In this document: piece by piece, positions 3,978-18,671 of the stretch | How the letters are laid out: every line of letters starts with the position of its first letter | How positions within the stretch are numbered: position 1 is the first letter of the stretch | Source: Prevotellaceae bacterium | Lineage (GTDB): Bacteria > Bacteroidota > Bacteroidia > Bacteroidales > Muribaculaceae | NCBI GenBank assembly: GCA_021772015.1 | Contig: JAETNS010000023.1 | Span: 1 to 36,872 of the forward strand | DNA length: 36,872 nt | Reading direction: 5' to 3' | Notes under the pieces: generated by a model | Databases searched by the model: none | Told to the model about the DNA's origin: nothing | Seen by the model: only the letters and a program-made list of their open reading frames with translations | Position numbers and translations under genes: made by a program

Positions 3978-4025
3978 TACGGATGTAAACAGCTTTGAAA
4001 TTATTTTCAGTTCATTTTCAAGCTG

Positions 4026-4033
4026 CAAAGTTA
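4026..4033 (-). promoter_or_regulatory. Candidate -7 box for typA
   Basis: The minus strand reads TAACTTTG, matching the Bacteroidales -7 consensus TAnnTTTG, with a 5' untranslated region of about 40 bases to the typA ATG. I found no TTTG at the expected -33 position, so confidence is modest. Confidence 0.4.
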
Positions 4034-4090
4034 CGAAATTTTCCCGTAAACCGCCCTACCTGTCACCGCTTTTTTATGTTCGCGCCGGCC

Positions 4091-4106
4091 GATCACAGCC
4101 GTGATC
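4091..4106 (-). terminator. Hairpin after barrel 1
   Basis: GATCAC (4091-4096) and GTGATC (4101-4106) form a six-pair stem with an AGCC/GGCT tetraloop, a few bases past the stop of barrel 1. There is no clear T tract on the minus strand, so it may be a weak terminator or an mRNA 3'-end stabiliser at the end of the RiPP transcript. Confidence 0.35.
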
Positions 4107-4114
4107 ACACCCCG

Positions 4115-6277
4115 TCAAGGCTTGGCGGAGTTTTGATCGGTCAGGCCGTCATCGCCGGGGGCAGCACGGAGATATTTCGGATCGTGGTTTCTTGCCCGTC
4201 CTTTTGAGAAATAGCAGGTAAACGATAGGCTGAACATTTCCCGGGGATGATATGATTTCCGTTGGCTGTAACTGAAATCACACGGCACCAATCCCGTAGC
4301 ACCCTCACCGACAGCGGGCATCGCCGACACACCTTTTCCCGTGACCGTCGTATGAGAGCCGGCATAGTTGAAATGGAAACCGAAAGAAAAATTACGGTAC
4401 TTGTATTGCGCCGTGATGGCCCATTGCATTCCGCTTTCAGTGGTGAGGTCTCCGTCAAACTCCTTTGTCGGGGAGTTGACATGAGCCGCTGCCTCGAAAT
4501 TGTTTTTTGAGAACTTCAATGAGCCACCTCCCCGCAGATAATTCGATCTCACGCGCCGGGACGGGGTGTCGTAACGGGTGGTATACAGCTCTACATACGG
4601 GGAAATCTCAAGCCAGGGGAAAACCGCCCAGTTACCGTTCAACTCAAGATAATTGGTGAATGAAGATGAGATCTGCGTAGGACGCATCCGTTCGATGCCG
4701 TCGTGGGGCGCGATGACCGAGACCGCCGGATGATGATCATACTCCGGCATAACCATCAGAATCAACCGGTTGGGATTGGACGAACCGATATACCCCACGG
4801 CAAGCTTCGCCATAGTGCGCCATGAGTCATTTTTCAAAGAAGGATTCCCCGTCGAGACAAACCATGTGTCAAGATATGTCGGACTTCCAGACAGGTCGCC
4901 AAGTTTATACGTTTGCCGAGAAAGAGTCATGGTCAACTGGGCTGTCAGGCCGCTAAGCTTCCCTTGACCCCACCAGTCGCCATATATCCTGACATAAGGG
5001 GAAATGTTGGTCAGGCTCTTTTCTGAAGTGGCTTGTGAATAAATCGAACCGCCAAGGTTCAAAGCCGCCGAAAAGCTCGCGTTCTCTCTCGGAAAGCTCT
5101 TGGCATATCCCGCGTTGAAGAAATCGTAATGGATATGAGGTGTGGTTCTGACATCGGCTACCGACTGGCTCATTCGCTTGAAATCATAAGCGTTGGCAAC
5201 CGAGAATTGTCCCCCTCTAATAAATGAGACGAACATGGCCGTGGCCGACAGGTTATAGACATTGTTGTCTACCGAGGCTATGTTGCCAAATGGTTCGCCG
5301 CCATCGGTAGATGGGATATCCATCCAGACCTCCGATGTAGAGGTGGATTTCCCCAATGTGTTTACCACGTTGACAGCGAACAATGATCCTTTGGGAAAGG
5401 TGTAGGCATAATACAGATCCGCCACACCTGTCTTGGCATCGCTCTCAAGATAATTGCGGCTCGAACCGCTCAACTTATCCTGACCCGCAACAAGAGCTGA
5501 ACGCGTGTCATAACGTTCATTTGCCGGATCGGATATGAATGAAAGTTTGGCGTTGAAAAGGTGGTCCCCCTGAAAACGTTGATACGAGACAGACGCAGTC
5601 TGGTTTACCCAATGATGCCGGCCCCGGCCAACATATGACGTGGCCATGTCGGGAGAATATATGTAATCGGAGTTAAGCTCCGTGCCACGGTATATGCGGT
5701 AATCCGCTATATATCCGATTTTGACCTGATTGAGGGAATCGGCATATGTCAGGTCGAGCTGATCGGTGCCATACCCGGCATTTACGGCGTTACGCGCATT
5801 GACGTATGCGCTATACAGTCGGTCGAACCGTCTCTTTGTTATGACATTCACGATCGGGCCGGTTGTGAACGACAGATACCGGGCAGGCGCGACCTGATAA
5901 TACTCGACTTTCTTTATGTCAGCTCCCTGATATGAGCGCAAGTCAAGAGCTGTAGACGGAACACCATTGATGAGCACATACACGTTCTGACGATCCCATG
6001 ACGTCAATGTCGTGGCATTCAGCGACGGGACAAACCTGTTCATCGAGGATATCGCGTCGAGCGCGTTAGTGCCAAACTCCCGGTTTTCTTTTGAGAGCAA
6101 CAGGACCTGGCAACCGTCACGATGGATCACATTTTCCGCCTTGACAACCACCTCGTCAAGATGCCTGTCCCCGATTGAATCCACCGGTTCAGCAGCCATC
6201 GCCCGTCCCCCGATTGTGACAACACAACCGACCACCACCAGCCATTTCACAACATCCATTCTCATACCGATTGACAT
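4115..6277 (-). CDS. TonB-receptor-like outer-membrane barrel 1 (RiPP module 1)
   Basis: The 720-residue protein has a signal peptide (hydrophobic VVKWLVVVGCVVTIGG, likely cut after AMA), a short linker with LDEVVVKAE, a plug-like domain at about residues 45-160 (VLINGVPSTALDLRSYQG, VEYYQVAPARY, GPIVNVITKR) and a large barrel. It has no N-terminal carboxypeptidase-regulatory-like domain, unlike barrel 2, and no clear TonB box. The barrel ends near FSLSFTCYF, followed by an unusual hydrophilic tail of nearly 30 residues. The ATG at 6277 is 7 bases after the radical SAM 1 stop; a longer reading from 6307 would overlap that gene. I infer a dedicated outer-membrane partner for peptide 1 (export, uptake or immunity). 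Its base composition is closer to the housekeeping genes than that of the adjacent radical SAM gene. Confidence 0.8.
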   Translation of the reverse strand: MSIGMRMDVVKWLVVVGCVVTIGGRAMAAEPVDSIGDRHLDEVVVKAENVIHRDGCQVLLLSKENREFGTNALDAISSMNRFVPSLNATTLTSWDRQNVYVLINGVPSTALDLRSYQGADIKKVEYYQVAPARYLSFTTGPIVNVITKRRFDRLYSAYVNARNAVNAGYGTDQLDLTYADSLNQVKIGYIADYRIYRGTELNSDYIYSPDMATSYVGRGRHHWVNQTASVSYQRFQGDHLFNAKLSFISDPANERYDTRSALVAGQDKLSGSSRNYLESDAKTGVADLYYAYTFPKGSLFAVNVVNTLGKSTSTSEVWMDIPSTDGGEPFGNIASVDNNVYNLSATAMFVSFIRGGQFSVANAYDFKRMSQSVADVRTTPHIHYDFFNAGYAKSFPRENASFSAALNLGGSIYSQATSEKSLTNISPYVRIYGDWWGQGKLSGLTAQLTMTLSRQTYKLGDLSGSPTYLDTWFVSTGNPSLKNDSWRTMAKLAVGYIGSSNPNRLILMVMPEYDHHPAVSVIAPHDGIERMRPTQISSSFTNYLELNGNWAVFPWLEISPYVELYTTRYDTPSRRVRSNYLRGGGSLKFSKNNFEAAAHVNSPTKEFDGDLTTESGMQWAITAQYKYRNFSFGFHFNYAGSHTTVTGKGVSAMPAVGEGATGLVPCDFSYSQRKSYHPREMFSLSFTCYFSKGRARNHDPKYLRAAPGDDGLTDQNSAKP

Positions 6278-6284
6278 AGCTATT

Positions 6285-7568
6285 TTATTTAGTGCATTGT
6301 TTGACAAGAAATTTCAATAGTTCATCTTCGAACACCTCATCCATTGAATCGAATTTGCAGAAATTCTCACCTGCAAGAAAGTTTTTAGGGCACAACCCCA
6401 TACACACCGGCAACTCCTTGCATGCAAGACATCTTGGATTCTCAAACGATGGAGAGAAACATTTTAAATCAAAATCGTCATGCCATTCTATAGTTCCGTC
6501 TTCTTTCAATATCCCTTTAGGTTTTTCCTCATAGAGATCATTACAAGCCGTGCATTTTACTATATGTCCGTTGTAATTTATGGCATTATAGTATTTCTTA
6601 TTTACATAACAAGGTGTAAAACCTATTTGGCCAATGGCATTACTGATTTTATATCCTGAATTCTCAAAACAATTCACCACGTCAGACAATCTGCTCCCAA
6701 AAGATTTATCAACACTCTCTTGCCATACTTTTTTGGGTGAAATGAATATACGATCACGCACCTCAGGGCAAACTTGTTTGTTGACCTCTTCCACCAATCT
6801 CATAGAAAGATTATGATGAGTATAATTTATCCTCAAAAACAATGTCACATTCTTATTGACAATGAGCATATTATTTATGTTTGACAAAACTCTCTCAAAC
6901 GCAGAGTCACAACCTTTGGTAAATTTCACCTTATCATGCACACGCTTCTCTCCATCCAACGTAATTTGAAATTGGCGAAACCCTAACTCCTGTAATTGGG
7001 ACAAAACTCTTGGAATCAGGAAGTAACCATTGGTCGTCGCACTTGTCATATATGGCAATCCTTTGAGCTTACATTTCTCAACTGCATATTTACTGATTGG
7101 AGCAATGACTTGATCAAAGAACATAAATGGTTCACCTCCGAACCAATCCAAATGTAATGATTCAATCCCAACCTCTTCTATCATATAATCGATATGACGT
7201 TTTAAAGCATTCATTGTGTCTTCTTTCATTATAGACACTTTATGATTCTGAATACAGTACCAACATTTGAAATTGCAATTCAGTGTAGGCAATACGACCA
7301 GAAAATAATTTTTATCGTTTACAGCTTCATGATATTTTTTGCGTATGATATCTCGCTCATCAATATCTTCAGGCACGATGAATCCATTCTCTAATAGTTT
7401 TTCATAAAATATCGGAGATGTTTCTTTAATCGCCACTAAATCCTCCATAGAGTTTTCAATCTTTCGGCTCAAATTCTCTGATATTTGGAAATAGCATTGT
7501 GTGAGGCCATTATACCAATAGCCACTACCATTAGTATATAATATGTAATTGTATTTGCTTTGTTTCAT
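6285..7568 (-). CDS. SPASM-domain radical SAM peptide maturase 1
   Basis: This enzyme likely modifies precursor peptide 1 in the cytoplasm by radical chemistry. The radical SAM cluster motif is CNFKCWYC (C98, C102, C105), followed by WFGGEPF and TTNGY signatures of the TIM barrel. The C-terminal SPASM region carries a Cys set (CYVNKKYY, VKCTACND, CLACKELPVCMGLCPKNF) for auxiliary Fe-S clusters. About 90 N-terminal residues (YILYTNGSGYWYNG, FQISENL) resemble those of radical SAM 2 and may bind the leader, an inference. The ATG at 7568 (427 residues) is chosen because a longer frame from 7616 would run through the intergenic hairpin. The gene is AT-rich (18 G/C of 60 in 7261-7320). It matches the general pattern of Bacteroidales GG-leader radical SAM maturases; the chemistry cannot be read from sequence. 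Confidence 0.9.
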   Translation of the reverse strand: MKQSKYNYILYTNGSGYWYNGLTQCYFQISENLSRKIENSMEDLVAIKETSPIFYEKLLENGFIVPEDIDERDIIRKKYHEAVNDKNYFLVVLPTLNCNFKCWYCIQNHKVSIMKEDTMNALKRHIDYMIEEVGIESLHLDWFGGEPFMFFDQVIAPISKYAVEKCKLKGLPYMTSATTNGYFLIPRVLSQLQELGFRQFQITLDGEKRVHDKVKFTKGCDSAFERVLSNINNMLIVNKNVTLFLRINYTHHNLSMRLVEEVNKQVCPEVRDRIFISPKKVWQESVDKSFGSRLSDVVNCFENSGYKISNAIGQIGFTPCYVNKKYYNAINYNGHIVKCTACNDLYEEKPKGILKEDGTIEWHDDFDLKCFSPSFENPRCLACKELPVCMGLCPKNFLAGENFCKFDSMDEVFEDELLKFLVKQCTK

Positions 7569-7584
7569 AATCAAATTTTTTAAT

Positions 7585-7614
7585 GGGATCGAAATAGAAT
7601 ACCATTTCGATCCC
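7585..7614 (-). promoter_or_regulatory. Hairpin between precursor 1 and radical SAM 1
   Basis: GGGATCGAAAT (7585-7595) and ATTTCGATCCC (7604-7614) form a perfect 11-pair stem with an 8-base loop. It sits 21 bases after the precursor stop and 16 bases before the radical SAM ATG. No strong T tract follows it on the minus strand, so partial termination or RNA 3'-end protection, giving more precursor than enzyme, is likelier than full termination. Confidence 0.75.
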
Positions 7615-7635
7615 AAATAAAGAGGTTGGTCGTTT

Positions 7636-7830
7636 TTAATGAGTGATAACAGGAGCCATGCCGCATCCAGTCACAGCATTGAGACATCGAAGCTGATCAA
7701 CACCAGCTCCACATCCTTTAGATGCATTGACACACTCTGTTTGAGCCAAAGGATTAGCACTGCTACCACCCCTGATTTTCAAAGCTTCAAGTTCTTGAAG
7801 TTCGGTGATTGAGAATTTTGCCTTGTTCAT
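7636..7830 (-). CDS. RiPP precursor peptide 1, double-glycine leader, Cys repeat core
   Basis: This is a 64-residue precursor. The leader MNKAKFSITELQELEALKIRGG ends in GG at 21-22, the cut site expected for the C39 exporter. The 42-residue core has four Cys (33, 40, 49, 56) in two copies of C-[VL]-N-A-x-x-G-C-G spaced exactly 16 residues apart. It sits directly upstream of radical SAM 1, its probable modifier. It resembles the GG-Bacteroidales class of natural-product precursors. The mature product could be a thioether-linked or otherwise Cys-modified peptide; the activity is unknown. Confidence 0.85.
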   Translation of the reverse strand: MNKAKFSITELQELEALKIRGGSSANPLAQTECVNASKGCGAGVDQLRCLNAVTGCGMAPVITH

Positions 7831-8136
7831 AATGAAGTTAATTGATTAATTGACGATTCACCTTAGCAAACTTACTATAGGCGACTTGGAATTAGAGATC
7901 ATTTTTAGTTGGCAAAGAATACTGTTTATTGCCTTGTGTTTTCGCACAAAATTATATAAAACATCTGATATCGCCAAATTTTCGACAGATTATTTATTCC
8001 ACACCCAATATTTATAACCCGTTTATTTTTAGCTATTTACAAAACGCATCAACAATAAATTTTCTACACCTTGCAACTATCTATCCCCCAACGAGTTACC
8101 AAAACGCCGCGTCTGCCCTCGCTAACATATTGGTTA
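7831..8136. other. 306-base intergenic region upstream of precursor 1
   Basis: This AT-rich gap holds the promoter at 7947-7983, a second -7-like box TAAGTTTG (7867-7874, minus) without a partner -33, and a tandem 8-base repeat TTAATTGA x2 (7838-7853) just before the precursor ribosome-binding region. A plus-strand open frame (7929-8246) has no coding character and I do not call it. I see no further peptide gene here. Confidence 0.5.
7947..7983 (-). promoter_or_regulatory. Promoter for precursor 1 module
   Basis: The minus strand has TTTG (7975-7978), a 20-base spacer and TAATTTTG (7947-7954), a full Bacteroidales promoter. The -33 element sits in a longer GAAAATTTGGCG that is nearly the same in the promoter of precursor 2. 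It predicts a 5' untranslated region of roughly 110 bases. Confidence 0.6.
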
Positions 8137-8604
8137 TTAATGTTTTACACCCAGCAGAGAAACAAAGGATGCCTTATCTGTGGCTTCGGAAGATAGAATG
8201 CGATCGGCGATACGCCGTCTTTTGGTATAAAAATTCTTCAGTTTAAGATCACAGAAGAAACACACTGATCGAGTTGACAACCCGGCATAGATCAACAAGA
8301 CAAACTTCAAATCTTCAGAAGACAGCCACGGGCACTGTTCTCTAAGACGGCCCATTATACTATCCATATATTTATTGACGGATATCTCAATCTTGCGAAG
8401 ATTGTCAGGAGAAGTCATATTGCCCAATTCCTCCTCTATCCTTTTTATTATCAAAGGATGCAACTTAGTCATGTTGGACCTCTCGAAAAGTTCTTCACAT
8501 AACATATCAACAGTAATCCAACGCTCTTTGAATAGAGCCAGAATGGATTCGGAAAAGACCTCATTGGACATTGGATTTTTGTTAGAATCGTCTGATAATT
8601 TCAT
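8137..8604 (-). CDS. Soluble HTH regulator resembling the TPR regulator C-terminus
   Basis: The 155-residue protein has no signal peptide or membrane segment. Its C-terminal half (LKFVLLIYAGLSTRSVCFF, KNFYTKRRRIADRI) lines up with the end of the membrane TPR regulator at 15429-17141 (IYFIALKLAGFSPKSICLL, TNYYTKWQRIRARI), and an upstream LFK...LCEELFE segment also matches. The pattern GxSxKxI...L...S...Y.xxxRIR is LuxR-type helix-turn-helix-like, so DNA binding is likely. It lies between the exporter and precursor 1 and probably controls this locus. A TAAATTTG box lies 7 bases upstream of the ATG, so the transcript may be nearly leaderless. It could be a gene fragment, but the frame is intact. 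Confidence 0.65.
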   Translation of the reverse strand: MKLSDDSNKNPMSNEVFSESILALFKERWITVDMLCEELFERSNMTKLHPLIIKRIEEELGNMTSPDNLRKIEISVNKYMDSIMGRLREQCPWLSSEDLKFVLLIYAGLSTRSVCFFCDLKLKNFYTKRRRIADRILSSEATDKASFVSLLGVKH

Positions 8605-8611
8605 AATCTTA

Positions 8612-8619
8612 CAAATTTA
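8612..8619 (-). promoter_or_regulatory. Candidate -7 box for the soluble regulator
   Basis: The minus strand reads TAAATTTG, ending 7 bases before the ATG at 8604. No TTTG is found at -33. If used, the mRNA would start within a few bases of the ATG. Confidence 0.3.
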
Positions 8620-8645
8620 GCTCCGTTTTTAAGTGTCTTTAGCTG

Positions 8646-8855
8646 TCACCAACCCTTTATACGCGTCAAAATGACGCGGTCGAGATCAAGGAGGATGAAA
8701 ACGAACACAAGAGCGGCCACACAAAACAGGATGGCGACATAGCCCCAAAGATATAGAGCGAGAGGATGCCGTCCGAGCAGACGGCTTACTTTAGGCGAAC
8801 GTTCGATCGGAGTAGAAGACGTCGCCGAATCTGGCGGTGAGGAAGTACGGTTCAT
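8646..8855 (-). CDS. Small single-pass membrane protein of the exporter unit
   Basis: The 69-residue protein has a Ser/Pro/Thr-rich N-terminus, then one hydrophobic helix (LYLWGYVAILFCVAALVFVF) and a short charged tail ending RIKGW. I do not recognise the family. It sits 50 bases downstream of the exporter gene on the same strand. A membrane-fusion protein (HlyD type) would be expected there, and such proteins also begin with a short tail and one helix, so this could be a shortened relative, a small exporter partner or an immunity protein. A TTG start at 8870 is possible but the ATG at 8855 is preferred. Confidence 0.5.
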   Translation of the reverse strand: MNRTSSPPDSATSSTPIERSPKVSRLLGRHPLALYLWGYVAILFCVAALVFVFILLDLDRVILTRIKGW

Positions 8856-8905
8856 AACGGTGATTGGCAAATAGTTAGAGATTATTGATCGGAGAGGACT
8901 GTCTA

Positions 8906-11134
8906 TTAACCTCCAAGTTCAAGTTGGTTCTTTATAAGGTTGAAATACTTTCCGTGGAGCGCGACGAGGTATTCGTGAGTGCCCTGCTCGACAACATGGC
9001 CTTGGTCAAGCACTACGATATGGTCGGCATTACGGACTGTCGACAGGCGGTGGGCGACGACTACAACGGTTCGTTCCCGATAGAATCCATCAAGATTTCC
9101 TACTATCTCCCTCTCGTTGCGGGCATCAAGCGAGTTTGTCGCCTCGTCGAGAAAGATAAAGGGAGGATCCTTGTAGACGGCGCGGGCGATCAGGATCCGT
9201 TGTTTCTGACCCTGGCTAAGTCCCGTGCCGTCGGGTCCTATAACCGTGTCATAGCCTAACGGGAGGGATTGGATGAAGTCATGGATGTTGGCGATCCGAG
9301 CAGCCTCCAGAAGTCTCCCGCCATCGATTTCGCCGTCATCGACAGCGATGTTGCGGGCGATGGACTCGGAGAATATGATGCCTTCCTGCATCACCGCTCC
9401 GCATTGTCCGCGCCACCATCGGAGATCTATTTCCCGCAAGTTCCACTCCCCTATCATGATCTCTCCACGCGACACAGGATAGTAGCCGAGCATGAGCTTC
9501 ACAAGGGTGGTTTTTCCCGACCCGGAAGCACCGACTATGGCTGTCACCTTACCGGCGGGGATCTCAATATCGACACCGCGTATGGTTTCCTGTGGAGAAT
9601 GAGGATCATATCTGAAACCGATTCCGCGCAGGCTGATTGATTTTGCCGTGCCGCCGAAATCAGAGGCGGTCGCACCCCGCTGTTCCTCCTCGCGCCCCCG
9701 GTGGATCTCGTTTATGCGCTCAAGAGAGATCTTGACATCCTGTATGGAATAAATGAAAGCCATAAACTGCTCCACGGGGGAATTCAACTGGCCGACAATA
9801 TACTGGATGGCAAGCATAGCGCCCAACGACAGGCTGCCGTCGATGACACCTTTGGCCGCAAGCACGGTTATCAGGATATTCTTGACCTCGTTTATAAAGA
9901 CGCTACCCGCTTCCTGAGCCTGCTGCAGGCGCAGACTCTTCATCTGTACGGCGAAGAGATCGGCCTGCACATCCTCCCATTCCCACCGACGGCGACGGCC
10001 GCAGCCCTGCAGCTTGATCTCCTGCATGGACGTGATGAAACGGAAGGTCTTGTTCTGGTTATCGGCCTGCTTCTCAAACAGTTCATAATCGATAACCTTA
10101 CGCTGCCTTAGGAAAGAAGCGATCCATATCCCATACACAATGCTTCCTGCAAGGAACACCCCGAAAACCAGCTTGTCATAGAGCAGCAACACCACCCCGA
10201 ATACGAGGAAACTCAACATCGTGAACATGATCCCGAGGGTCTGCCCTGTCAGGAATGACTGGACCCGCTGATGGTCTGCCATCCGCTGCATCAGGTCGCC
10301 GGTGAGCTTCGTGTCGAAAAACGCCATCGGCAGATTGAGCAACTTTACGAAAAAGTCGCTCAACAATGATATGTTGACCCTCATCGATATGTGGAGCAAC
10401 AGCCGGCGGCGGATGAAATCTGTAGCTGCCCTCCCTATGACTATCATCAGTTCCCCCAACAGTATCAGCCATATGAAACTTATCTCTTTCCTGCTTATCC
10501 CCACATCGACGATGGCCTGGGTCAACATCGGCATCACCAGTTGCAACAGACACCCGGCCAAAAGCCCCAGGAATATCTGCAGGAAGAATTTCCGATACTC
10601 CTTGAGATACCGGGCAAGCACCCTGAAAGGATTCCCCCTCCGGTCCTCCTCCCGCTTCAACCGGCCAAAACGCTCGGTGGAGGTAAACCACATCCCGATC
10701 CCCTCACGGCCACTTTCATCCCTATTATCACTTGGAGGCAACCATCCTGCGGCAAATTCCTCGCGGGAGTAAGTGACCTTCCCTTTCGCGGGGTCGGCGA
10801 CTTTGAAACGTCGGCCACCGTTACTGACTTTGTAAAGCACCACAAAATGGTTCTGATTCCAATGCAATATGCACGGCAGCGGCAATCTTACAAGGTTGTC
10901 AATCGAGGTTTTCCCGCCTTTCGCCTCCAGTCCCAGCGATCCTGCGGCATCGGCTATACCTTTTAGCGACACCCCATCCTTGGTCGGGAAGCACAGCTCT
11001 TCAAGTTGCCCCACAGAACATCTCAACCCCAAACGGCGACATACCATCCAGAGCGCGACGACCCCGCACTGCATCGAGTCGCGCTGTTTCATGAAAGGGA
11101 AACTCACCAAGGCACCTTTGATTTTTGATCGCAT
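8906..11134 (-). CDS. Peptidase-containing ABC transporter (C39, PCAT)
   Basis: This inner-membrane exporter cuts double-glycine leaders and exports the peptide. Residues 1-130 are a C39 peptidase with Gln17, catalytic Cys23 (QRDSMQCG), His96 (NHFVVLY) and Asp114 (VADPAKGK), all present. A transmembrane region (about 180-470, several helices) follows, then an ATPase with Walker A GASGSGKTT (535-543), a signature written LSQGQ, Walker B FIFLDEA and the switch His in VVAHRLS. It probably serves both GG precursors in the locus. No HlyD-type adaptor gene is present. The ATG at 11134 is used; TTG at 11140 is the alternative. About 60 bases separate it from barrel 2, consistent with one operon. Confidence 0.93.
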   Translation of the reverse strand: MRSKIKGALVSFPFMKQRDSMQCGVVALWMVCRRLGLRCSVGQLEELCFPTKDGVSLKGIADAAGSLGLEAKGGKTSIDNLVRLPLPCILHWNQNHFVVLYKVSNGGRRFKVADPAKGKVTYSREEFAAGWLPPSDNRDESGREGIGMWFTSTERFGRLKREEDRRGNPFRVLARYLKEYRKFFLQIFLGLLAGCLLQLVMPMLTQAIVDVGISRKEISFIWLILLGELMIVIGRAATDFIRRRLLLHISMRVNISLLSDFFVKLLNLPMAFFDTKLTGDLMQRMADHQRVQSFLTGQTLGIMFTMLSFLVFGVVLLLYDKLVFGVFLAGSIVYGIWIASFLRQRKVIDYELFEKQADNQNKTFRFITSMQEIKLQGCGRRRRWEWEDVQADLFAVQMKSLRLQQAQEAGSVFINEVKNILITVLAAKGVIDGSLSLGAMLAIQYIVGQLNSPVEQFMAFIYSIQDVKISLERINEIHRGREEEQRGATASDFGGTAKSISLRGIGFRYDPHSPQETIRGVDIEIPAGKVTAIVGASGSGKTTLVKLMLGYYPVSRGEIMIGEWNLREIDLRWWRGQCGAVMQEGIIFSESIARNIAVDDGEIDGGRLLEAARIANIHDFIQSLPLGYDTVIGPDGTGLSQGQKQRILIARAVYKDPPFIFLDEATNSLDARNEREIVGNLDGFYRERTVVVVAHRLSTVRNADHIVVLDQGHVVEQGTHEYLVALHGKYFNLIKNQLELGG

Positions 11135-11191
11135 CCACAAAGTTAGTCAAATTTCCTTTTCATCCAACAGTTTTTCAGCCCAAACTTATTT

Positions 11192-13495
11192 CTACAAACG
11201 GTTTTTCTCCGAAGCACCGGCTCCTTGTCCTTTGTATCGCGAGCGGGTGGCATTGAATGTGTATTTCACTGTCAGTTTGAAATCCCGGAACGACCGATCG
11301 GTCATCCCCTTGTTTATGGTCGCCGGATCGTAGCTTGTGTAATGCAAGCGTTGTTGATCAAGCAGATCACGACCCCACACTTGTATGGCAAGCATCCCTT
11401 TCAGGAAAGTTTTCGACAAGCCGATATTCAGAAGATGGGAATACCTGATATAACTTAACCTGCTGTCTCCTGAAGACCTGAACACATACTGCCCGTAAAG
11501 AGTGAAACCATAAGGCAACTCTATGGAATTGTCAAAGGCAACTGTGAATATCGGCTGCGAAAGGGCCACTTGGCGACCTCCCGACTCTACTTTTAACCAT
11601 TGTTTCTCCAAACCCATAGACAATGAGGGAGTCCATCGGATAATCTTTGTGCCATATCCCGCATTGACATACATTGACTTTATGTCGGGAATATTCATCC
11701 AATATTGTAAAATAATTTCAGGATCAGGCTCATACAATACAGAAGCGTGGATAATGGCTGATTTTTCATATTTGTAACCCGACTGAAGCCAGAAAGCCCC
11801 ATATTGGGCATTGAGATAAACCCGCTGTAATTTCGACGACCTCAACTGTGGATTGCCGGCCTGATAGGTATAGCGGTTGACATAGTTCACCTGCCCGGTC
11901 ATCATGCTGTAGGATGGCTGGTAGGTGTCATAGCGATAGCCTATATTCCATGAAAATTTCCCGAATGTCGCTCCGAATTTTATATTAGGGAAAAGATAGT
12001 CATGATTCTCCTTGTAGGAGTCATCACTGCCGTAATATTTGACACGACGATGTTCGTATCTCAGTCCTATTTCCCAGAAAAACTTTGAAAGACGCTGTTT
12101 CCAACTCGCAAACACAGCTATCGATGATTCGTTATTGTCAGAATATCCGGCATTCATCACCCCCTCCGGACTAAAGAACGTTGATTTATAATCAGTATCT
12201 GTCCACTCCTGACCAAGAGAAAATTCCGCGTTTTTTACCGGATAAGCCAGAATCACATTCTCGGCCAACAGGCGCGACGAGGATGTACCCTGCGTTGAGA
12301 AAAACCTCGACGGAGTAGTTCCTCCGAACTCATGATAACGGGTATCGGTTCGGGAATCATTCCCCTGATAATCAAAATTAGATGAGACGGACAGGTCTCC
12401 TATTTTTCCCTCATAGTAAAAATTGAGGTTATGGCAAGGCCACATACGGGTGTCGCCCTCCTCATTCTGCTCCCATTCGTCGGTTGTATCAGGTGTAAGC
12501 TGTTTCGTAGTGCTTGACAGATCCCTTTTTGTCTTTGACCAGAGAAGATAATAAGAACCGCCCACCGAATGATTAGCGTTGAAATCATAGCTGAACCCCA
12601 CTTTGCCGTTGACATTATTGTGTAGGTCTATGTAACGTGATGAAAAATCTTCCCTACGCGGTATAGAAGAAAAGACATCAGAGTAATATTCCATAACCGT
12701 CTCGCTGTCAATATGGTTCTGGTAAATGCGACCAAACAGCTCAAGTCCGCGCCAACGGTATTGAAGATAGGTTCCAATCGTGTTTGAAAACCGGGGATCC
12801 AACACCATCGTCTCCGAGATCCACCCGCTAAGCCCCTCCCCTGCCTGTTTCTTTGTCTTGATAAGAATAACCGCATTCACATCCGCCCCATAGCGGCTTC
12901 CGGGATTGGTTATAACCTTTATTGATGCGATATCTGACGGTTGCAACGCCCTCAGATCAGACAGATCCCTGACCCGGCGGCTGTTGATATAAAATATCGG
13001 TGAGCCTTTGCCGAACACACTGACACTTTCCCCCTCGACCGACAACATCGGGATAAATGACAGCGTCTCAAACACCGTCGGCATATCGGCCAGCGGTGTG
13101 TTCCCCACGGATGTCACCATATCCCCCTCGACAAGACGTGTCATTGGTTTCCTTGCCGTTACGGACACTTCTTGCAACAACGTTTCTTTAGGAGAAAGTC
13201 TGACAATCAATGACTGCCTGTCATTATCCCCGACAGCCAGAGTCTGCTCATCATACCCTACAAGTCTGAATGTCAACATCTCAATCCCCTTTCCCGGCAA
13301 CTCAAACCTGCCGACAGAGTCTGTCACCGTACCCGCCACGAATGTGGAGTCTGCCCCCATCCCCACAACGTTGACAAACTCAAGTGGAGCCAAAGAGATA
13401 ATATCTTCAACATTACCTGTAACACTCTGTCCGTATGCTGTCAAACTGAATAAACAGATGATGCCATGAAGTATCAGAAGTGATATGTTTTTCAT
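11192..13495 (-). CDS. TonB-receptor-like outer-membrane barrel 2 (RiPP module 2)
   Basis: The 767-residue protein has a signal peptide (ISLLILHGIICLFSLTAYG), an N-terminal carboxypeptidase-regulatory-like domain (VTGNVEDIISLAPLEFVNVV to about residue 105), a plug (LQEVSVTARKP, FETLSFIPMLSVEG, VFGKGSPIFYINSRRV, VITNPGSRYG) and a barrel. It fits the Bacteroidetes 'outer membrane protein beta-barrel family' (PF14905-like) and ends with the tail GAGASEKNRL typical of that group. The ATG at 13495 is 64 bases after radical SAM 2. It occupies the same place in module 2 as barrel 1 in module 1. Transport or binding of peptide 2 is an inference. Confidence 0.85.
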   Translation of the reverse strand: MKNISLLILHGIICLFSLTAYGQSVTGNVEDIISLAPLEFVNVVGMGADSTFVAGTVTDSVGRFELPGKGIEMLTFRLVGYDEQTLAVGDNDRQSLIVRLSPKETLLQEVSVTARKPMTRLVEGDMVTSVGNTPLADMPTVFETLSFIPMLSVEGESVSVFGKGSPIFYINSRRVRDLSDLRALQPSDIASIKVITNPGSRYGADVNAVILIKTKKQAGEGLSGWISETMVLDPRFSNTIGTYLQYRWRGLELFGRIYQNHIDSETVMEYYSDVFSSIPRREDFSSRYIDLHNNVNGKVGFSYDFNANHSVGGSYYLLWSKTKRDLSSTTKQLTPDTTDEWEQNEEGDTRMWPCHNLNFYYEGKIGDLSVSSNFDYQGNDSRTDTRYHEFGGTTPSRFFSTQGTSSSRLLAENVILAYPVKNAEFSLGQEWTDTDYKSTFFSPEGVMNAGYSDNNESSIAVFASWKQRLSKFFWEIGLRYEHRRVKYYGSDDSYKENHDYLFPNIKFGATFGKFSWNIGYRYDTYQPSYSMMTGQVNYVNRYTYQAGNPQLRSSKLQRVYLNAQYGAFWLQSGYKYEKSAIIHASVLYEPDPEIILQYWMNIPDIKSMYVNAGYGTKIIRWTPSLSMGLEKQWLKVESGGRQVALSQPIFTVAFDNSIELPYGFTLYGQYVFRSSGDSRLSYIRYSHLLNIGLSKTFLKGMLAIQVWGRDLLDQQRLHYTSYDPATINKGMTDRSFRDFKLTVKYTFNATRSRYKGQGAGASEKNRL

Positions 13496-13559
13496 AATTA
13501 TATGGCACATTATAAATATATGATGAGATTCTTTAGGCTAAATATCAAAATTCCATGTG

Positions 13560-14882
13560 TCAAATAGACAAGTAGAATTTCTGTATATTATTCTTTTTAC
13601 TTTCCAAATAAAGCAGCAAAGATTCCTCCAACATTTTTGTATCTTTAAAAAATGGACATAGAGAATAGTGGCCTTTTTGTACTAAGTTTTTACTTCGATA
13701 ATAACCGCATCCACCGCTACAAGCAGGGAAAACCACACAATCCTTACAATTTTTATCAGAAAACGGAGAGGTCTCCAAAAGATAATGCATAAACAACCGT
13801 CTATTATTAAAATCATTAGTACGTATATTCCCAACAACCCTATCAGGATGATTCACATCATTCCAACAAGTGTATATTTCACCCTCCGGCCCAATGATAA
13901 ACGCATTGAGAGAATGAATTATACACCCTTTACCCTCGATTTTTCGCGGCATAAAATCCACAGAAATTCCTTCTTGATGACATTCCTTAAGAAATTCAAA
14001 ATAATCCGCAGGATTAAGACATGAATAACACATGGAACATCCATCTGGAGTTTCCTCACGGATGATTCCAGGATATATTGCAAATGTTTTATCAGGATAT
14101 AATCGCCTAAGCTCTTTATGCATGGAGATGTAATCACGTTTGTTTCTTTTTGATATATTTATTCTGATGCTTAAATCACAATCAGGCAAATTAGTCAGTA
14201 TTTCTCCAATGTTTCTTATTATATTCTCATATGTGCCTTCCCTACTACCTTTAAGACATCTCGTCAGATTGTGATTTTCTTTTACACCATCCAATGTTAT
14301 CTGAATACTTTTTAACCCAGTCTCGCACATGAAGTCTATGATCTCACGATTAATAAGATAACCATTTGTAAGAATTGAGTGACCGTTTATTTCAACTCCA
14401 TCAATTTCTCTTATCGCGTTATAAAGTTTTTGTACCCGCTGAAACGCCAACAATGGTTCTCCACCATACCATGTTAGACTTATATTTTTTACAGTTTCAC
14501 GTTTTTTTATGAACTCAACTAACTGAAGTTGAGTTTCATCACTCATAAATTTCCCGATCTTTTGTCCCTCGAAACAATATGGGCAATCAAAATTACATGC
14601 AGTTGTCGGGACTAACACCAAGCTCAATTGCGATAAATTATATCCCCTGATATTCGATTTGATGAGAGATTCGTTGTAATATTGATATTTATCGTCATGA
14701 GGCACCAAAACATTTTTAGATAATAAATCATCCAGGACCTCTGATGGCAAACTCTCATAGTCTCTATCATATAATACCTGGAATAAGTCCTCACTAATCT
14801 CCGCGAAAAACCTATGCATGGCATTGTATAAATAACAATGGCCTTTTCTCTGAAAAATATGTGTATATATCGATTGTATCAT
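13560..14882 (-). CDS. SPASM-domain radical SAM peptide maturase 2
   Basis: The 440-residue enzyme likely modifies precursor peptide 2. The radical SAM motif is CNFDCPYCFE (C96, C100, C103), then TWYGGEPLL and LTNGYLI. The SPASM region includes GCIIHSLNAF, IYTCWNDV, CKDCVVFPACSGGCGYYR and a final LCPFF. The first 80 residues (YLYNAMHRFFAEISEDL) resemble the N-terminus of radical SAM 1 and may bind the leader; this is an inference. Its Cys layout differs from enzyme 1 outside the core motif, suggesting different substrates. It is AT-rich (19 G/C of 60 in 14641-14700). The start is fixed by the ATG 13 bases after the intergenic hairpin. Confidence 0.9.
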   Translation of the reverse strand: MIQSIYTHIFQRKGHCYLYNAMHRFFAEISEDLFQVLYDRDYESLPSEVLDDLLSKNVLVPHDDKYQYYNESLIKSNIRGYNLSQLSLVLVPTTACNFDCPYCFEGQKIGKFMSDETQLQLVEFIKKRETVKNISLTWYGGEPLLAFQRVQKLYNAIREIDGVEINGHSILTNGYLINREIIDFMCETGLKSIQITLDGVKENHNLTRCLKGSREGTYENIIRNIGEILTNLPDCDLSIRINISKRNKRDYISMHKELRRLYPDKTFAIYPGIIREETPDGCSMCYSCLNPADYFEFLKECHQEGISVDFMPRKIEGKGCIIHSLNAFIIGPEGEIYTCWNDVNHPDRVVGNIRTNDFNNRRLFMHYLLETSPFSDKNCKDCVVFPACSGGCGYYRSKNLVQKGHYSLCPFFKDTKMLEESLLLYLESKKNNIQKFYLSI

Positions 14883-14895
14883 TAGTAAAATTTTT

Positions 14896-14932
14896 ATAAG
14901 GCGTATCGCATATCAATTACGATACGCCTTAT
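14896..14932 (-). promoter_or_regulatory. Hairpin between precursor 2 and radical SAM 2
   Basis: ATAAGGCGTATCG (14896-14908) and CGATACGCCTTAT (14920-14932) form a perfect 13-pair stem with an 11-base loop, ending 13 bases before the radical SAM 2 ATG. It has the same placement as the module 1 hairpin but no shared sequence. Confidence 0.78.
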
Positions 14933-14947
14933 ATTCGAATGATTAAA

Positions 14948-14974
14948 GAATGGATACCCTTTGGATATCCATTC
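14948..14974 (-). terminator. Second hairpin just after precursor 2
   Basis: GAATGGATA (14948-14956) and TATCCATTC (14966-14974) form a nine-pair stem with a 9-base loop, starting 14 bases past the precursor 2 stop and followed on the minus strand by TTTAATC. It is probably a partial terminator or 3'-end stabiliser that works with the next hairpin. Confidence 0.55.
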
Positions 14975-14988
14975 ATCCAAGTCAGTTT

Positions 14989-15165
14989 TTAGCCCACAGT
15001 CTGACTTCCGCATCCAGATTTGTTATCTTTGCAAAAATCATTACAATTACAGCCATAATTCTCATCACAGCACACACCTTTAGTTGTGCCTCCTTTGACA
15101 AAGCCAAGATTAATGGGAGTGACTTCCTGAAAGGAATAGACAGCCATGGAAAAATCTTTTTTCAT
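14989..15165 (-). CDS. RiPP precursor peptide 2, double-glycine leader, six-Cys core
   Basis: This is a 58-residue precursor. The leader of 26 residues (MKKDFSMAVYSFQEV... ending VKGG) is followed by a 32-residue core with six Cys at 32, 33, 39, 41, 45 and 52. The core is unlike that of peptide 1, though both leaders share a K..FS start and end in GG. A longer frame begins at 15234, but its first codons lie in the promoter, so the ATG at 15165 is right. Radical SAM 2 lies directly downstream and the C39 exporter should cut after GG. Mature structure and activity are unknown. Confidence 0.83.
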   Translation of the reverse strand: MKKDFSMAVYSFQEVTPINLGFVKGGTTKGVCCDENYGCNCNDFCKDNKSGCGSQTVG

Positions 15166-15231
15166 AGGTTCTTTTTTGATTAGAAAATTGTTTCGAGTCA
15201 TCTTATATCTGACACTTGATGACTTTATTGT

Positions 15232-15270
15232 CAAAATTACACCTAAGATCAGGATTGCACCAAATTTTTC
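15232..15270 (-). promoter_or_regulatory. Promoter for precursor 2 module
   Basis: TTTG (15261-15264, minus), a 21-base spacer and TAATTTTG (15232-15239) match the Bacteroidales consensus. The -33 lies in GAAAAATTTGGTG, nearly the same as in the precursor 1 promoter. The predicted 5' untranslated region is about 60 bases. Confidence 0.65.
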
Positions 15271-15428
15271 CTCAAATTAAATTGTCACATGTTTTATTAT
15301 ATTACAACCACAATATAATGACAACCAACGCATTACAGATTTGTGACATATTAACTTTGTCACACTTATTCAATCCCGTAATTTATAAGGATATAAGAAT
15401 ACCAACAGCCCTTGTTTGTAAGATATTT

Positions 15429-17141
15429 TTACGAGAAAAGATCAGCATTTGTTGTGAGCACATTGGATTCTGCGATACGCGCTCGGATCCGCTGCCATTT
15501 AGTATAGTAGTTGGTTGGGGAGATTTCCAGTAAAAGACAGATCGATTTGGGAGAGAAACCGGCAAGTTTTAAAGCGATAAAATAAATATCGGCGGTTTTA
15601 ATTTTAGGCATCTCTAACTTGATTTTAGATAAAATTCCATTATAGAGTAGCTCTATTTTATCGCTAATCAAATCCAATGACCCTTTCGATCTCAGCTTTT
15701 CAAGTTGTAAATCCATACTTCTAATAACTGATTCTGGAGTACCACGCCCCGTGGATTTAGCAATAAAGTATTCCGTGATCAGTTTATCCAATGACTCAAA
15801 ACCAGCTTTAAACAATACTTCCGCGACCGATCTGTCTATTTTAGCAGATTCCAATTGCTCCCTAACACTATCAAGTTCCATTAATGTTGATATTTCACGC
15901 TCTTTTCGCTGCTTTAGTCTAAAACGGAAGAACAACATCAAAAATATAATGGCTATAAGAGAAGACAACACAACTATAAAAATAACATTATTCCGTGTTT
16001 CTACTTTTACAGCCTCCTTCTGGGCTTCTTTATTATAATATTCACTTGTGACAAGTGAGGGGGCTTGCGTCACTGTGACATTATGACGAAACTGGCTGAT
16101 ACTGTCGGCAAGCCGCGCATACTTATACGCCCGTTTATAATCTCCGCGTGCCTCGGCTGCAAGCTGACTATAACGGTAATAATAAAAGTTACCGTCACCC
16201 CCATAATAATGATCTTTCATTACCGGGAGATAATGCTCCACACTGTCAATCTTGCCCGCTGCATAAAACATCATCAAAACATTCCGCCAATCTATTTTCT
16301 TCAAAAAATCATTTCCGGAATATTTAAGGGAGTTACGAAAAGACTTTTCTGCCTGTGCCAAACTATCTCCCGCCACATAAATCATTATATAGCTATTATA
16401 AATCTCCGCAAGTGAGACGGAATCAGTAATAGGAGTTGCCAGAACGACACTATCCATCAAAGCCAATGCCTCATCAGTTCGTCCAACACCATTCAAATAG
16501 ACCGCAACAAATCTTTTATGTCTGCGGACATCTCCATAGCGGCCACAAGCAGCATAATATGAGCAGCATTTTTGAGCATGGGAAAGGACCGAGTCATCTT
16601 GATAAACCGGCTCAAATGCATACATTAGCATTTTCTCTACACGAGCCATATGAAGAGTATCTATTCCAGTCACAGCAATATCTTTCGCTTCAAATGCATC
16701 CGACATTGCATCCGACAGATTACGTTTAAATAAATTCCATGAGCTTCTTACAATCAACGCTTCAAACAGATGCCTGTCATCCCCCTCTTTTCTGAAAAAC
16801 TCCACATGGGCTGTCAGCGCGGAGTCAGTTTCGGGATAATCACCACAGTAAATGTTTCCTTTCGACCGCAAAAGGCCATGCAATTCCCGACGACGGTCAT
16901 TGTCAAGGCTTGCCGACGGAATTGAATCAAGCTGCCGCAAAAGCAACCTGACATCGGGCATCGTGTCATTGAACCTCTCCTCGATATCGGCAAGCAGTCG
17001 GTCGGTATCCGTTTCGCGGTGGCATGAACAGAGTGCCGGAATCAGAAACAGCAGGACCAGCGGGAACAAGGAAAGCCCCCGACGTAAAACACGACAGCAA
17101 ATACGATCCGGTGTAGATCCAAGTGTTTCGGAGAAAAGCAT
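15429..17141 (-). CDS. Membrane-bound TPR regulator with C-terminal HTH
   Basis: The 570-residue protein starts with an N-terminal hydrophobic segment (LSLFPLVLLFLIPALCSC; the LCSC end could be a lipobox). TPR-like helices at about 45-360 are predicted periplasmic. A transmembrane helix follows (VIFIVVLSSLIAIIFLMLFF, about 386-405), then a coiled coil and a cytoplasmic domain ending in a LuxR-like helix-turn-helix (GFSPKSICLLLEISPTNYY, RIRARI). It resembles Bacteroidetes DUF6377-type membrane regulators. Placed first in the RiPP locus, it may sense an envelope or peptide signal and control transcription. A GTG start at 17171 would lie in the -7 box, so the ATG at 17141 is chosen. Confidence 0.75.
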   Translation of the reverse strand: MLFSETLGSTPDRICCRVLRRGLSLFPLVLLFLIPALCSCHRETDTDRLLADIEERFNDTMPDVRLLLRQLDSIPSASLDNDRRRELHGLLRSKGNIYCGDYPETDSALTAHVEFFRKEGDDRHLFEALIVRSSWNLFKRNLSDAMSDAFEAKDIAVTGIDTLHMARVEKMLMYAFEPVYQDDSVLSHAQKCCSYYAACGRYGDVRRHKRFVAVYLNGVGRTDEALALMDSVVLATPITDSVSLAEIYNSYIMIYVAGDSLAQAEKSFRNSLKYSGNDFLKKIDWRNVLMMFYAAGKIDSVEHYLPVMKDHYYGGDGNFYYYRYSQLAAEARGDYKRAYKYARLADSISQFRHNVTVTQAPSLVTSEYYNKEAQKEAVKVETRNNVIFIVVLSSLIAIIFLMLFFRFRLKQRKEREISTLMELDSVREQLESAKIDRSVAEVLFKAGFESLDKLITEYFIAKSTGRGTPESVIRSMDLQLEKLRSKGSLDLISDKIELLYNGILSKIKLEMPKIKTADIYFIALKLAGFSPKSICLLLEISPTNYYTKWQRIRARIAESNVLTTNADLFS

Positions 17142-17170
17142 TTTTGATAACGTTGAGGAGTAATAATTCA

Positions 17171-17202
17171 CAAATTTAAAATATTATTCCCAAATCAGCA
17201 AA
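17171..17202 (-). promoter_or_regulatory. Promoter for the TPR regulator
   Basis: TTTG (17199-17202, minus), a 20-base spacer and TAAATTTG (17171-17178) give a full Bacteroidales promoter, with about 25 bases of leader before the ATG at 17141. Confidence 0.58.
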
Positions 17203-17257
17203 TAAATCCCTAATCATAAGCCTCAATTTTTACACACATCTTTTTGCCGAAATTAAA

Positions 17258-17293
17258 TTTGCAATTTTGTAACTTTATTTGTAATTTTGCAAC
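17258..17293 (+). promoter_or_regulatory. Promoter and direct repeats upstream of higBA
   Basis: TTTG (17258-17261), a 20-base spacer and TAATTTTG (17282-17289) form the promoter. It coincides with two 16-base direct repeats, TTTGCAATTTTGTAAC (17258-17273) and TTTGTAATTTTGCAAC (17278-17293), with two mismatches and a 20-base period. The repeats may be the antitoxin operator, as these systems usually autorepress. Confidence 0.6.
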
Positions 17294-17312
17294 GAATTAA
17301 ATCTTATGTATT

Positions 17313-17606
17313 ATGCGTATCATCACAGAAGAGCCACTTAAGGAGTTTATCCTACGTCACCCCGACAGCAGGACAGCATTACAAGACTGGGTAAAGACTG
17401 TCAAGACAGCCAAATGGAGTAATTTCGCTGATGTCAGGAAGACGTTCAATAGCGCAGACAACGTTGGGAATCAACATTATGTCTTCAATATAAAAGGTAA
17501 TCAATACCGGATAGTGGCAGTTATTAAATTTACAATACAATGGTTATACATCAGATTCATAGGCACTCATGCGGAATATGACAAGATAGATTGCGCAACA
17601 ATTTGA
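17313..17606 (+). CDS. higB: HigB-type mRNA interferase toxin
   Basis: The 97-residue protein resembles the E. coli HigB toxin family, which cuts mRNA on the ribosome when not bound by its antitoxin. Matching segments are MRIITEEPLKEFILRHPDS at the start, NQHYVFNIKGNQYRIVAVIKF in the middle and the closing IGTHAEYDKID. The length fits. The antitoxin gene follows after 77 bases on the same strand. It lies next to the RiPP locus but is divergently transcribed, so no link is claimed. Confidence 0.85.
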   Translation: MRIITEEPLKEFILRHPDSRTALQDWVKTVKTAKWSNFADVRKTFNSADNVGNQHYVFNIKGNQYRIVAVIKFTIQWLYIRFIGTHAEYDKIDCATI

Positions 17607-17621
17607 ATAACTTACAATTAA

Positions 17622-17662
17622 AACCATCAAGCTTAAACACAAAAACTTGACGGTTGTTTTTA
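17622..17662 (+). terminator. Hairpin with T tract between higB and higA
   Basis: AACCATCAAG (17622-17631) and CTTGACGGTT (17646-17655) pair with one mismatch, followed by GTTTTTAA. It looks like a weak terminator inside the operon, which would lower antitoxin readthrough or stabilise the toxin message. Confidence 0.45.
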
Positions 17663-17683
17663 ATCTAAAGAAAGGGAATCGAA

Positions 17684-18049: not shown

Positions 18050-18064
18050 TTATTGCAAACAACG

Positions 18065-18658: not shown

Positions 18659-18671
18659 CTGATCAGGTTTG

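Follow-up and report, generated by a model that had tools for sequence, protein, structure and literature searches.

What does a bacterium gain by placing two sets of peptide-maturation genes beside a single exporter? The question is raised by a 36,872-nucleotide contig (JAETNS010000023.1 of assembly GCA_021772015.1) from a Prevotellaceae bacterium assigned by GTDB to the Muribaculaceae; the entire contig (G000:C1, from a genome of 2.86 Mb) was analyzed and is referred to below as the window. Positions 4115-17141 of its minus strand, with typA and a UPF0029 gene as neighbours, hold a locus for two ribosomally synthesized and posttranslationally modified peptides (RiPPs). Read from right to left, the order is reg1, pep1, rSAM1, omp1, a C39 exporter gene, a gene for a membrane protein of 69 amino acids (aa), reg2, pep2, rSAM2, and omp2. 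In both modules a short precursor with a Gly-Gly (GG) leader and a Cys-rich core adjoins a radical S-adenosylmethionine (SAM) enzyme of the SPASM type. A first-pass annotation had described precursor, hairpin, SPASM enzyme, and outer-membrane barrel as laid out twice on one strand, together with one C39 exporter, two related regulators, and a small membrane protein, and every one of these parts is present.

The locus is best read as a modular tandem of exchangeable peptide-maturase cassettes on a shared exporter, not as a conserved two-peptide pair, and we put the chance that two independent RiPP modules are joined on one exporter at about even. Each precursor would be transcribed from its own promoter and, with a hairpin following its gene, in excess of its enzyme. 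Its leader would be bound, and its core cross-linked, by its own SPASM enzyme, likely through Cys thioethers. Both leaders would then be cut at GG, and the single C39 ATP-binding cassette (ABC) exporter would pump the cores across the inner membrane, assisted by an adaptor that retains only a HlyD-type tail and a membrane anchor. The locus has neither TolC nor a periplasmic duct; each peptide would be freed into the periplasm and would cross the outer membrane via its own TonB-dependent barrel, and reg1 and reg2 would adjust the two units separately. The released peptides may have an antibacterial or signalling role.

Recurrence of two modules with one exporter

A profile of 21 maturase sequences matched at least 98 of 397 genomes of the family at 1e-40 and at least 32 of 393 genomes of the order at 1e-60; at most four candidates were scored per genome in these searches, and genome and pair counts are therefore lower bounds. 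Regions L047-L106 were picked as strong matches and not randomly. The usual Muribaculaceae layout comprises a regulator, precursor, maturase, barrel, and exporter, each present once; outside this family the first gene is often that of the barrel. At least seven loci have two modules and a single exporter in view, namely the window, L064, L067, L087, L088, L144, and L229. The window, L064, L067, L087, and L088 represent five of the 98 matching family genomes, and L229 comes from another genome, among the 32 of the order; L144, in which the two modules are divergent, is from Phocaeicola sartorii. The maturase starts lie about 7 kb apart in all seven. No second exporter was found in the stretches adjoining L087 and L064 (L230 and L231), and L067 and L229 extend to contig ends. 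Three other close maturase pairs were dropped: that of G147 (L089) has no precursor, barrel, or exporter beside it, and those of G086 and G219 consist of partial matches side by side, taken to be fragments of a single gene. Because L226 and L227 begin close to contig ends, absence of a maturase was not counted there. The first-pass annotation had proposed looking for both modules together in other genomes, and in a general sense the six further loci bear out that pairing.

Sharing of the exporter is consistent with the leaders. The LahT150 C39 structure has leader contacts at Val-4, Leu-7, and Leu-12 (PMC6363468). Residues -4, -7, and -12 are V/L/V in pep1 and I/A/L in pep2, where the -7 residue is a small Ala, and they are suited to the C39 groove in both. 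Across 78 leaders, a count that leaves out 44 of 123 modules without a recognised precursor, position -4 is hydrophobic in 94% and position -12 in 85%, and both window leaders conform. Since both fit C39 recognition, one exporter can plausibly serve both. The cores were earlier called unrelated and the leaders similar; GG leaders and Cys-rich cores are indeed found, but the likeness of the leaders is mild, the two being closer than 87% of leader pairs among the 78.

The six leaders nearest to that of pep2 all come from near relatives of rSAM2, and a core motif follows the same lineage: two or more CxN(x2-4)C[GA] repeats are present in 8 of 12 precursors of rSAM2 near relatives versus 0 of 66 others, and at least one repeat in 9 of 12 versus 5 of 66, with both motif and distance limit picked after the cores were seen. 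The pep1 core has other Cys spacings, and pep1 has no family match in NCBIfam, Pfam, or PHROG.

The genome also holds a third locus (L071, G000:C8:210001-230000), made up of a barrel, a precursor bearing CxN..C repeats, a maturase, another barrel, and a separate exporter that is more distant (35% identical to that of the window). Many relatives encode, between regulator and precursor, a small, apparently secreted protein of some 125 aa that is absent at the window; the L062 copy (12617-12991) matches DUF3244 (1e-6), and the L064 copy has no Pfam domain. A cytidylyltransferase gene (PF02348, 4e-23 and 6e-22) adjoins the precursor in L050 and L087, and a protein of 433-434 aa, without a Pfam match in the L087 copy, is encoded beside the barrel in both L051 and L087. 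The peptide at such loci perhaps carries a sugar.

The reduced adaptor and the outer-membrane barrels

The window exporter aligns along its length with the solved bacteriocin transporter 4ry2. The 69-aa protein belongs to a family of single-helix proteins of 50-80 aa, most of whose genes immediately follow that of the exporter. A model built on 17 short forms matches the N-termini of proteins of 433 and 447 aa (8e-14 and 1e-12), which are PF13437 HlyD proteins over cut-off, and also intermediate forms of 241-244, 171, 161, and 154 aa. The reverse model, from three PF13437 proteins, matches the intermediates, the 154-aa one at 0.002 only, and 20 short forms (<=82 aa) at E <0.001, the window copy not among them. 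None of 9855 shuffled decoys matches the short-form model or a model of all nine long forms. The window copy joins the family through the short forms (leave-one-out E 1e-6), and its counterpart in a sister species (L218) scores 3.9e-9 with a model containing neither of the two. Judged by these profiles, the protein is a HlyD-type adaptor of which only the N-terminal tail and a single helix are left, both homologous to those of PF13437 proteins. It keeps the N-terminal anchor alone and not the periplasmic domain of the full-length HlyD adaptor of type I secretion, and none of the ten locus proteins scanned has a HlyD Pfam match.

Among exporters followed by 250 or more bases of sequence, an adaptor-type open reading frame (ORF) follows in 15 of 31 cases in Muribaculaceae and 9 of 24 elsewhere, so that over half have none there; adaptor-type ORFs of <=90 aa number 15 in Muribaculaceae and three elsewhere. 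All seven two-module loci have a reduced adaptor, of 161 aa in L229 and about 56-71 aa in the other six. With the short-adaptor model, nothing was matched at E values up to 1 in the 30 loci of PF13437 matches from 21 genomes (L187-L216). An idea that full adaptors are paired with TolC was dropped, as the 462-aa ORF beside the L122 adaptor encodes a Peptidase_S41 protein. It is possible, if doubtful, that the C39 exporter and the pared-down HlyD anchor form the hub of a hub-and-spoke system, which would free several peptides, each exiting by its own TonB-driven barrel, and into which cassettes of precursor, maturase, and barrel could be plugged, or from which they could be lost, with the exporter unchanged.

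No Pfam family matches omp2, and the best 50 PDB matches listed for its model (mean confidence 81.6) are TonB-dependent receptors or transporters, some of them presumed to be of that class, with TM-scores of 0.40-0.56 over the query. A plug and large barrel fold is thus indicated for omp2 by its model and for omp1 by PF14905 only. In the barrel set (A2), a near-invariant L-x-E-V stretch near the N-terminus is what we take to be the TonB box. Iterated profile searches from omp1 and from omp2 gather 71 ORFs each. Compared with each other by BLASTP, omp1 and omp2 are not similar (E 0.99).

TonB-dependent transporters are importers as a rule, and the barrels may be receptors instead of exits, the peptide leaving by some other path and the barrel re-importing it for self-sensing, immunity, or uptake of a metal-peptide complex. 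We consider this unlikely, although by no means negligible. All 50 of the PDB matches listed for omp2 are named uptake receptors or transporters, and a sister-species site speaks to the same point. Twelve other genomes of the genus have a typA match, and nine of these sites were fetched (L217-L225); the UPF0029 neighbour was seen at two of the nine, the other seven being without it within the stretch fetched. The site of one sister species (L217) is empty. That of another (L218) keeps reg1 (64% identity), omp1 (64%), the exporter (81%), and a 65-aa adaptor, with no same-strand ORF of >=30 aa in the 230 bases where pep1 and rSAM1 are expected and no module 2. Persistence of a regulator, barrel, exporter, and adaptor without precursor or maturase is what immunity or eavesdropping genes would be expected to show, and between the window and L218 the exporter, reg1, and adaptor show far less amino-acid than silent change, the latter being saturated and not computable for omp1. 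On the other hand, the exporter is likewise kept in L218, and the ten locus proteins scanned with Pfam include no other outer-membrane channel and no SusD-like protein. The two sites fit gain of the cassettes by the window and loss of one by L218 alike.

Maturase distance is correlated with leader distance (r 0.37, n=78) and barrel distance (r 0.51, n=72; 0 of 2000 permutations each) and less with exporter distance (r 0.09, n=57; 149 of 2000); within Muribaculaceae the values are 0.60 for leader (n=41), 0.55 for barrel (n=55), and 0.18 for exporter (n=32; 24 of 5000). In the window, the pep2 leader and omp2 track rSAM2 (Spearman 0.55 and 0.64, versus -0.38 and -0.46 for the partner maturase), and omp1 tracks its own enzyme weakly (0.07 versus -0.29).

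Several points weigh against independent modules on a shared exporter with dedicated exits. The distance correlations ignore host relatedness. In the 27 modules with all four parts, maturase distance correlates with leader (0.55), barrel (0.66), and also exporter (0.30), and leader with exporter at 0.66; the exporter is therefore not free of the peptide, and the distinction between a dedicated barrel and a generic exporter becomes a matter of degree. The pep1 leader follows the partner maturase (Spearman 0.32) rather than its own (-0.13). Within the two-module loci tested, the own maturase outperforms the partner for the leader in 6 of 10 modules and for the barrel in 5 of 7, which leaves within-locus pairing unproved by this comparison. 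Persistence of omp1 without a maturase in L218 also fits a receptor or immunity role, and the usual inward direction of TonB-dependent barrels is compatible with uptake or self-sensing. The window adaptor is divergent (E 0.008 with the nine-long-form model and no match with the three-PF13437 model). TolC is absent from the locus, the rest of the genome not having been searched for it. The earlier assignment of one barrel to each maturase is thus clear for module 2 and weak for module 1, in which the leader tracks the partner enzyme better and the L218 barrel has no maturase next to it.

Proposed independence of the modules and their control

Both maturases are over the Pfam cut-off for radical SAM proteins (PF04055), and seven C-terminal cysteines are among the invariant columns of a 21-row alignment, with a spacing like that which we take to define the SPASM motif. 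Both score under the cut-off of every maturase family among the best 25 listed for each. TIGR04463 (cut-off 525 bits), the best maturase model for rSAM1, gives 218 bits for rSAM1 and 160 for rSAM2; the GG-Bacteroidales peptide maturase model TIGR04148 (cut-off 300 bits) gives 48.6 bits for rSAM1 and is not among the best 25 of 53 families listed for rSAM2. The closest solved relative is CteB (5wgg), by sequence (5.5e-42) and as the best PDB match in a fold search with the rSAM2 model (2.3e-17). By analogy with such enzymes, rSAM1 and rSAM2 would cross-link the cores, most likely by thioether bonds at Cys, and the first 60 residues of the rSAM2 model, three strands followed by helices, fit a candidate leader-binding RiPP recognition element. 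Two other findings concern maturases elsewhere: Prevotella sp. ne3005 encodes a maturase of 1101 aa (L111, 10001-13306, plus strand) with a Pfam radical SAM match in its first part only and the rest unmatched, and L059 and L061 each hold three maturase-like genes among other genes, with no convincing precursor, barrel, or exporter of this kind in view.

An origin of the two modules by duplication was considered and set aside; the maturases are 25% identical and the barrels share no BLASTP similarity, which argues against any recent duplication. The GC content of precursors and maturases (0.35-0.44) is below that of barrels and exporter (0.46-0.54), with the regulators likewise AT-rich (0.42 and 0.39), and in Muribaculaceae modules the maturase has a lower GC content than the barrel in 52 of 55 cases and than the exporter in 32 of 32. 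A tblastn search of 72,556 plasmid records with rSAM2 matched 10 records, all at <60% identity.

The two peptides might be needed jointly, possibly with the maturases working as one complex. The thuricin CD cluster encodes a pair of precursors and a pair of enzymes, and the enzymes there function as a complex (PMC12093266). The presence of two precursors, two maturases, and one exporter in a single locus is in keeping with such a two-component product, as is the failure of the pep1 leader to track rSAM1 relatives any better than rSAM2 relatives. It is nevertheless improbable, since module partners differ in every two-module locus, the modules have separate promoter matches, and the enzymes are so dissimilar. 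Close relatives of each module stand singly in fetched stretches (L047 and L048 for module 1, L062 and L063 for module 2), and no fetched locus besides the window has close relatives of both rSAM1 and rSAM2. Gene order varies as well, being module-exporter-module in the window and L088, with the exporter last in L064 and L087 and the barrel first in L229. This variation of partners and order tells against the earlier suggestion that the peptides act together, and the companion suggestion, that they compete, found no support.

How an exporter can come to be shared is illustrated by L088, where a second adaptor copy (18471-18818; 226 bases, 81%) lies behind the second module, broken into two ORFs, as if a second exporter had been lost. 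Another view, that two mobile RiPP loci adjoin by chance, with a redundant exporter lost and no function in the pairing, has little to recommend it: an empty site in L217 and a different one in L218, AT-rich maturase genes (GC 0.35 versus 0.46-0.54 for barrels and exporter), varying gene order, and the broken adaptor of L088 all suit it, but the arrangement of one exporter with two maturases some 7 kb apart is seen in seven loci from several lineages, and this view differs from independent modules on a shared exporter mainly in whether module 2 really uses that exporter.

Separate control of the modules is suggested by the promoter matches. The pattern TTTG-N(19-21)-TAATTTTG, which we take to be the Bacteroidetes-type consensus, has three matches in the window versus 0.04 expected, two of them at precursors (Table 1); a looser form, TAnnTTTG, lies upstream of 9 of 78 precursors versus 28 of 2440 random stretches. 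The folding of each precursor-maturase gap exceeds that of all 200 shuffles, and a shorter piece cutting the second pep1 hairpin gives z -2.4 (4 of 200). Hairpins 3' of the precursor are a common trait, with z <= -2 in 63 of 78 modules (34 of 41 in Muribaculaceae, 29 of 37 in others), and would be expected to keep precursor output well above enzyme output.

The regulators are related, with 27% identity over 117 aa between reg2 and the C-terminal part of reg1 (E 4e-13), and reg1 matches DUF6377 and the BT3442 family weakly, under cut-offs. A candidate operator before pep1, the inverted repeat TGTGACAA-N8-TGTCACA, occurs once in the window, with no second copy there, and in none of 100 shuffles, the pattern having been written after the site was seen; L218 has an equivalent at the same place (8091-8113). 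A shared operator for both modules was rejected: AAAAWTTTGGYG is found before pep1 and pep2 alike, but chance alone would give 1.35 matches, and the promoter match alone was therefore retained. Rfam gave no match to an RNA element in 4000-18100. Just beyond the locus, on the opposite strand, are a HigB toxin gene (PF09907, 2e-33) and an antitoxin-like gene of helix-turn-helix type (17313-18049, plus strand), with a promoter match upstream at 17258-17289; neither gene was found in L217 or L218.

Table 1. Features of the locus in window coordinates, from right to left (HTH, helix-turn-helix; MFP, membrane fusion protein; pLDDT, predicted local distance difference test).
Feature	Position	Strand	Basis or remark
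reg1, transmembrane regulator, 570 aa	15429..17141	-	TPR-type N-terminal part, helix, C-terminal HTH-like part (domains mostly by sequence inspection)
Promoter-like TTTG-N20-TAAATTTG upstream of reg1	17171..17202	-	5 matches in window vs 0.31 expected
Inverted repeat TGTGACAA-N8-TGTCACA, candidate operator, reg1/pep1 gap	15342..15364	-	Pattern match
Promoter-like TTTG-N21-TAATTTTG, module 1	15232..15264	-	Pattern match
pep1 precursor, 58 aa, GG leader, core TTKGVCCDENYGCNCNDFCKDNKSGCGSQTVG	14989..15165	-	ORF; C39-type leader
Two strong hairpins, pep1/rSAM1 gap	14895..14984	-	Fold z -8.2
rSAM1, radical SAM/SPASM maturase, 440 aa	13560..14882	-	PF04055 68.8 bits; TIGR04085 50.5 bits (cut-off 27)
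omp1 barrel, 772 aa, N-terminal CarbopepD_reg_2 domain	11192..13510	-	PF14905 140 bits; PF13715 32.4 bits (cut-off 32.2)
C39 peptidase-containing ABC exporter, 744 aa, sole one in locus	8906..11140	-	PF03412 (6.9e-29), PF00664, PF00005
Reduced HlyD-type adaptor ("mini-MFP"), 69 aa, cytosolic tail and one transmembrane helix	8646..8855	-	Profile models
reg2, 155 aa, relative of reg1 C-terminal part	8137..8604	-	Sequence similarity to reg1
Promoter-like TTTG-N20-TAATTTTG, module 2	7947..7978	-	Pattern match
pep2 precursor, 64 aa, GG leader, core with two CxN(x4)CG repeats	7636..7830	-	ORF; repeats common to precursors of rSAM2 relatives
Hairpin, pep2/rSAM2 gap	7584..7615	-	Fold z -4.5
rSAM2, radical SAM/SPASM maturase, 427 aa	6285..7568	-	PF04055 44.5 bits; model pLDDT 90.7
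omp2, TonB-dependent-transporter-like barrel with plug, 720 aa	4115..6277	-	Model pLDDT 81.6; fold search

Comparison with known systems

The nearest precedents are four Bacteroidales RiPP clusters, BGC6-9, in which a peptidase-containing ABC transporter (PCAT) and an outer-membrane protein occur without a membrane fusion protein (Fernandez-Cantos et al., 2023; PMC10352776). As in the window, GG precursors, a C39 exporter, and an outer-membrane protein are present, with a radical SAM enzyme in BGC6-8, and a TPR-type protein, such as reg1 here, is found in BGC2 and BGC9. They differ in that BGC6-8 carry YcaO and BGC9 carries LanM, whereas the window has an adaptor in the form of a 69-aa stub and two modules sharing an exporter; BGC5 combines two precursors with two radical SAM enzymes and has no exporter (PMC10352776). 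The first-pass annotation had supposed a distinct system, a claim that does not hold as such, because single modules are widespread and PCAT and outer-membrane protein without an adaptor have already been described (PMC10352776). That survey asked whether such clusters use a distinct transport mechanism or whether the adaptor had been overlooked (PMC10352776). No HlyD adaptor stub is described in the open-access literature searched, including excerpts of PMC10352776, PMC8939145, and PMC8277102.

Other systems share individual parts. Thuricin CD (TrnA/B, TrnC/D) likewise has two Cys-containing precursors and two radical SAM maturases in one cluster, but it comes from Bacillus, which lacks an outer membrane, and its enzymes work jointly, in contrast to window modules whose relatives occur singly and which have separate promoter matches (PMC12093266). 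Thioether-forming CteB shares the SPASM domain and is the closest solved relative by sequence and fold, but it is 19% identical to rSAM2 in the structural alignment and the precursors differ. Type I secretion by HlyB-HlyD-TolC has in common with the window a C39-type ABC exporter and the HlyD-type N-terminal anchor, but the window locus has TonB-type barrels in place of the periplasmic HlyD domain and TolC. For outward traffic through such barrels there is a precedent in Oar, a CarboxypepD_reg-type TonB-dependent transporter that is required for protein secretion in Myxococcus and in which the TonB box is important; omp1 resembles it in having a CarboxypepD_reg-type domain, although the Oar cargo, PopC, is a protease (PMC6434023), and export by omp1 and omp2 is a prediction. 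Bacteroidetes graspetide loci also place TonB-dependent receptor-related proteins, PF14905 barrels, beside C39 exporters and SPASM maturases, with export predicted, but they are defined by ATP-grasp enzymes, and HlyD-family proteins are listed for them (PMC8939145).

The reduced adaptor and the TonB-type barrels provide concrete genes for the question of how peptides cross the outer membrane in Bacteroidota; if the hub-and-spoke arrangement is true, some members of this phylum have replaced the TolC duct with dedicated TonB-dependent exporters. Sister-species sites that are empty, that hold an exporter and barrel without a maturase, or that hold two modules form a natural series with which production can be separated from export or immunity. 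Set against the known systems, a large part of the locus is familiar, namely the single modules, the exporter and barrel without an adaptor, and the TPR-type proteins; what is new is that sharing of an exporter recurs, that the adaptor is a stub, and that a single site offers a natural series.

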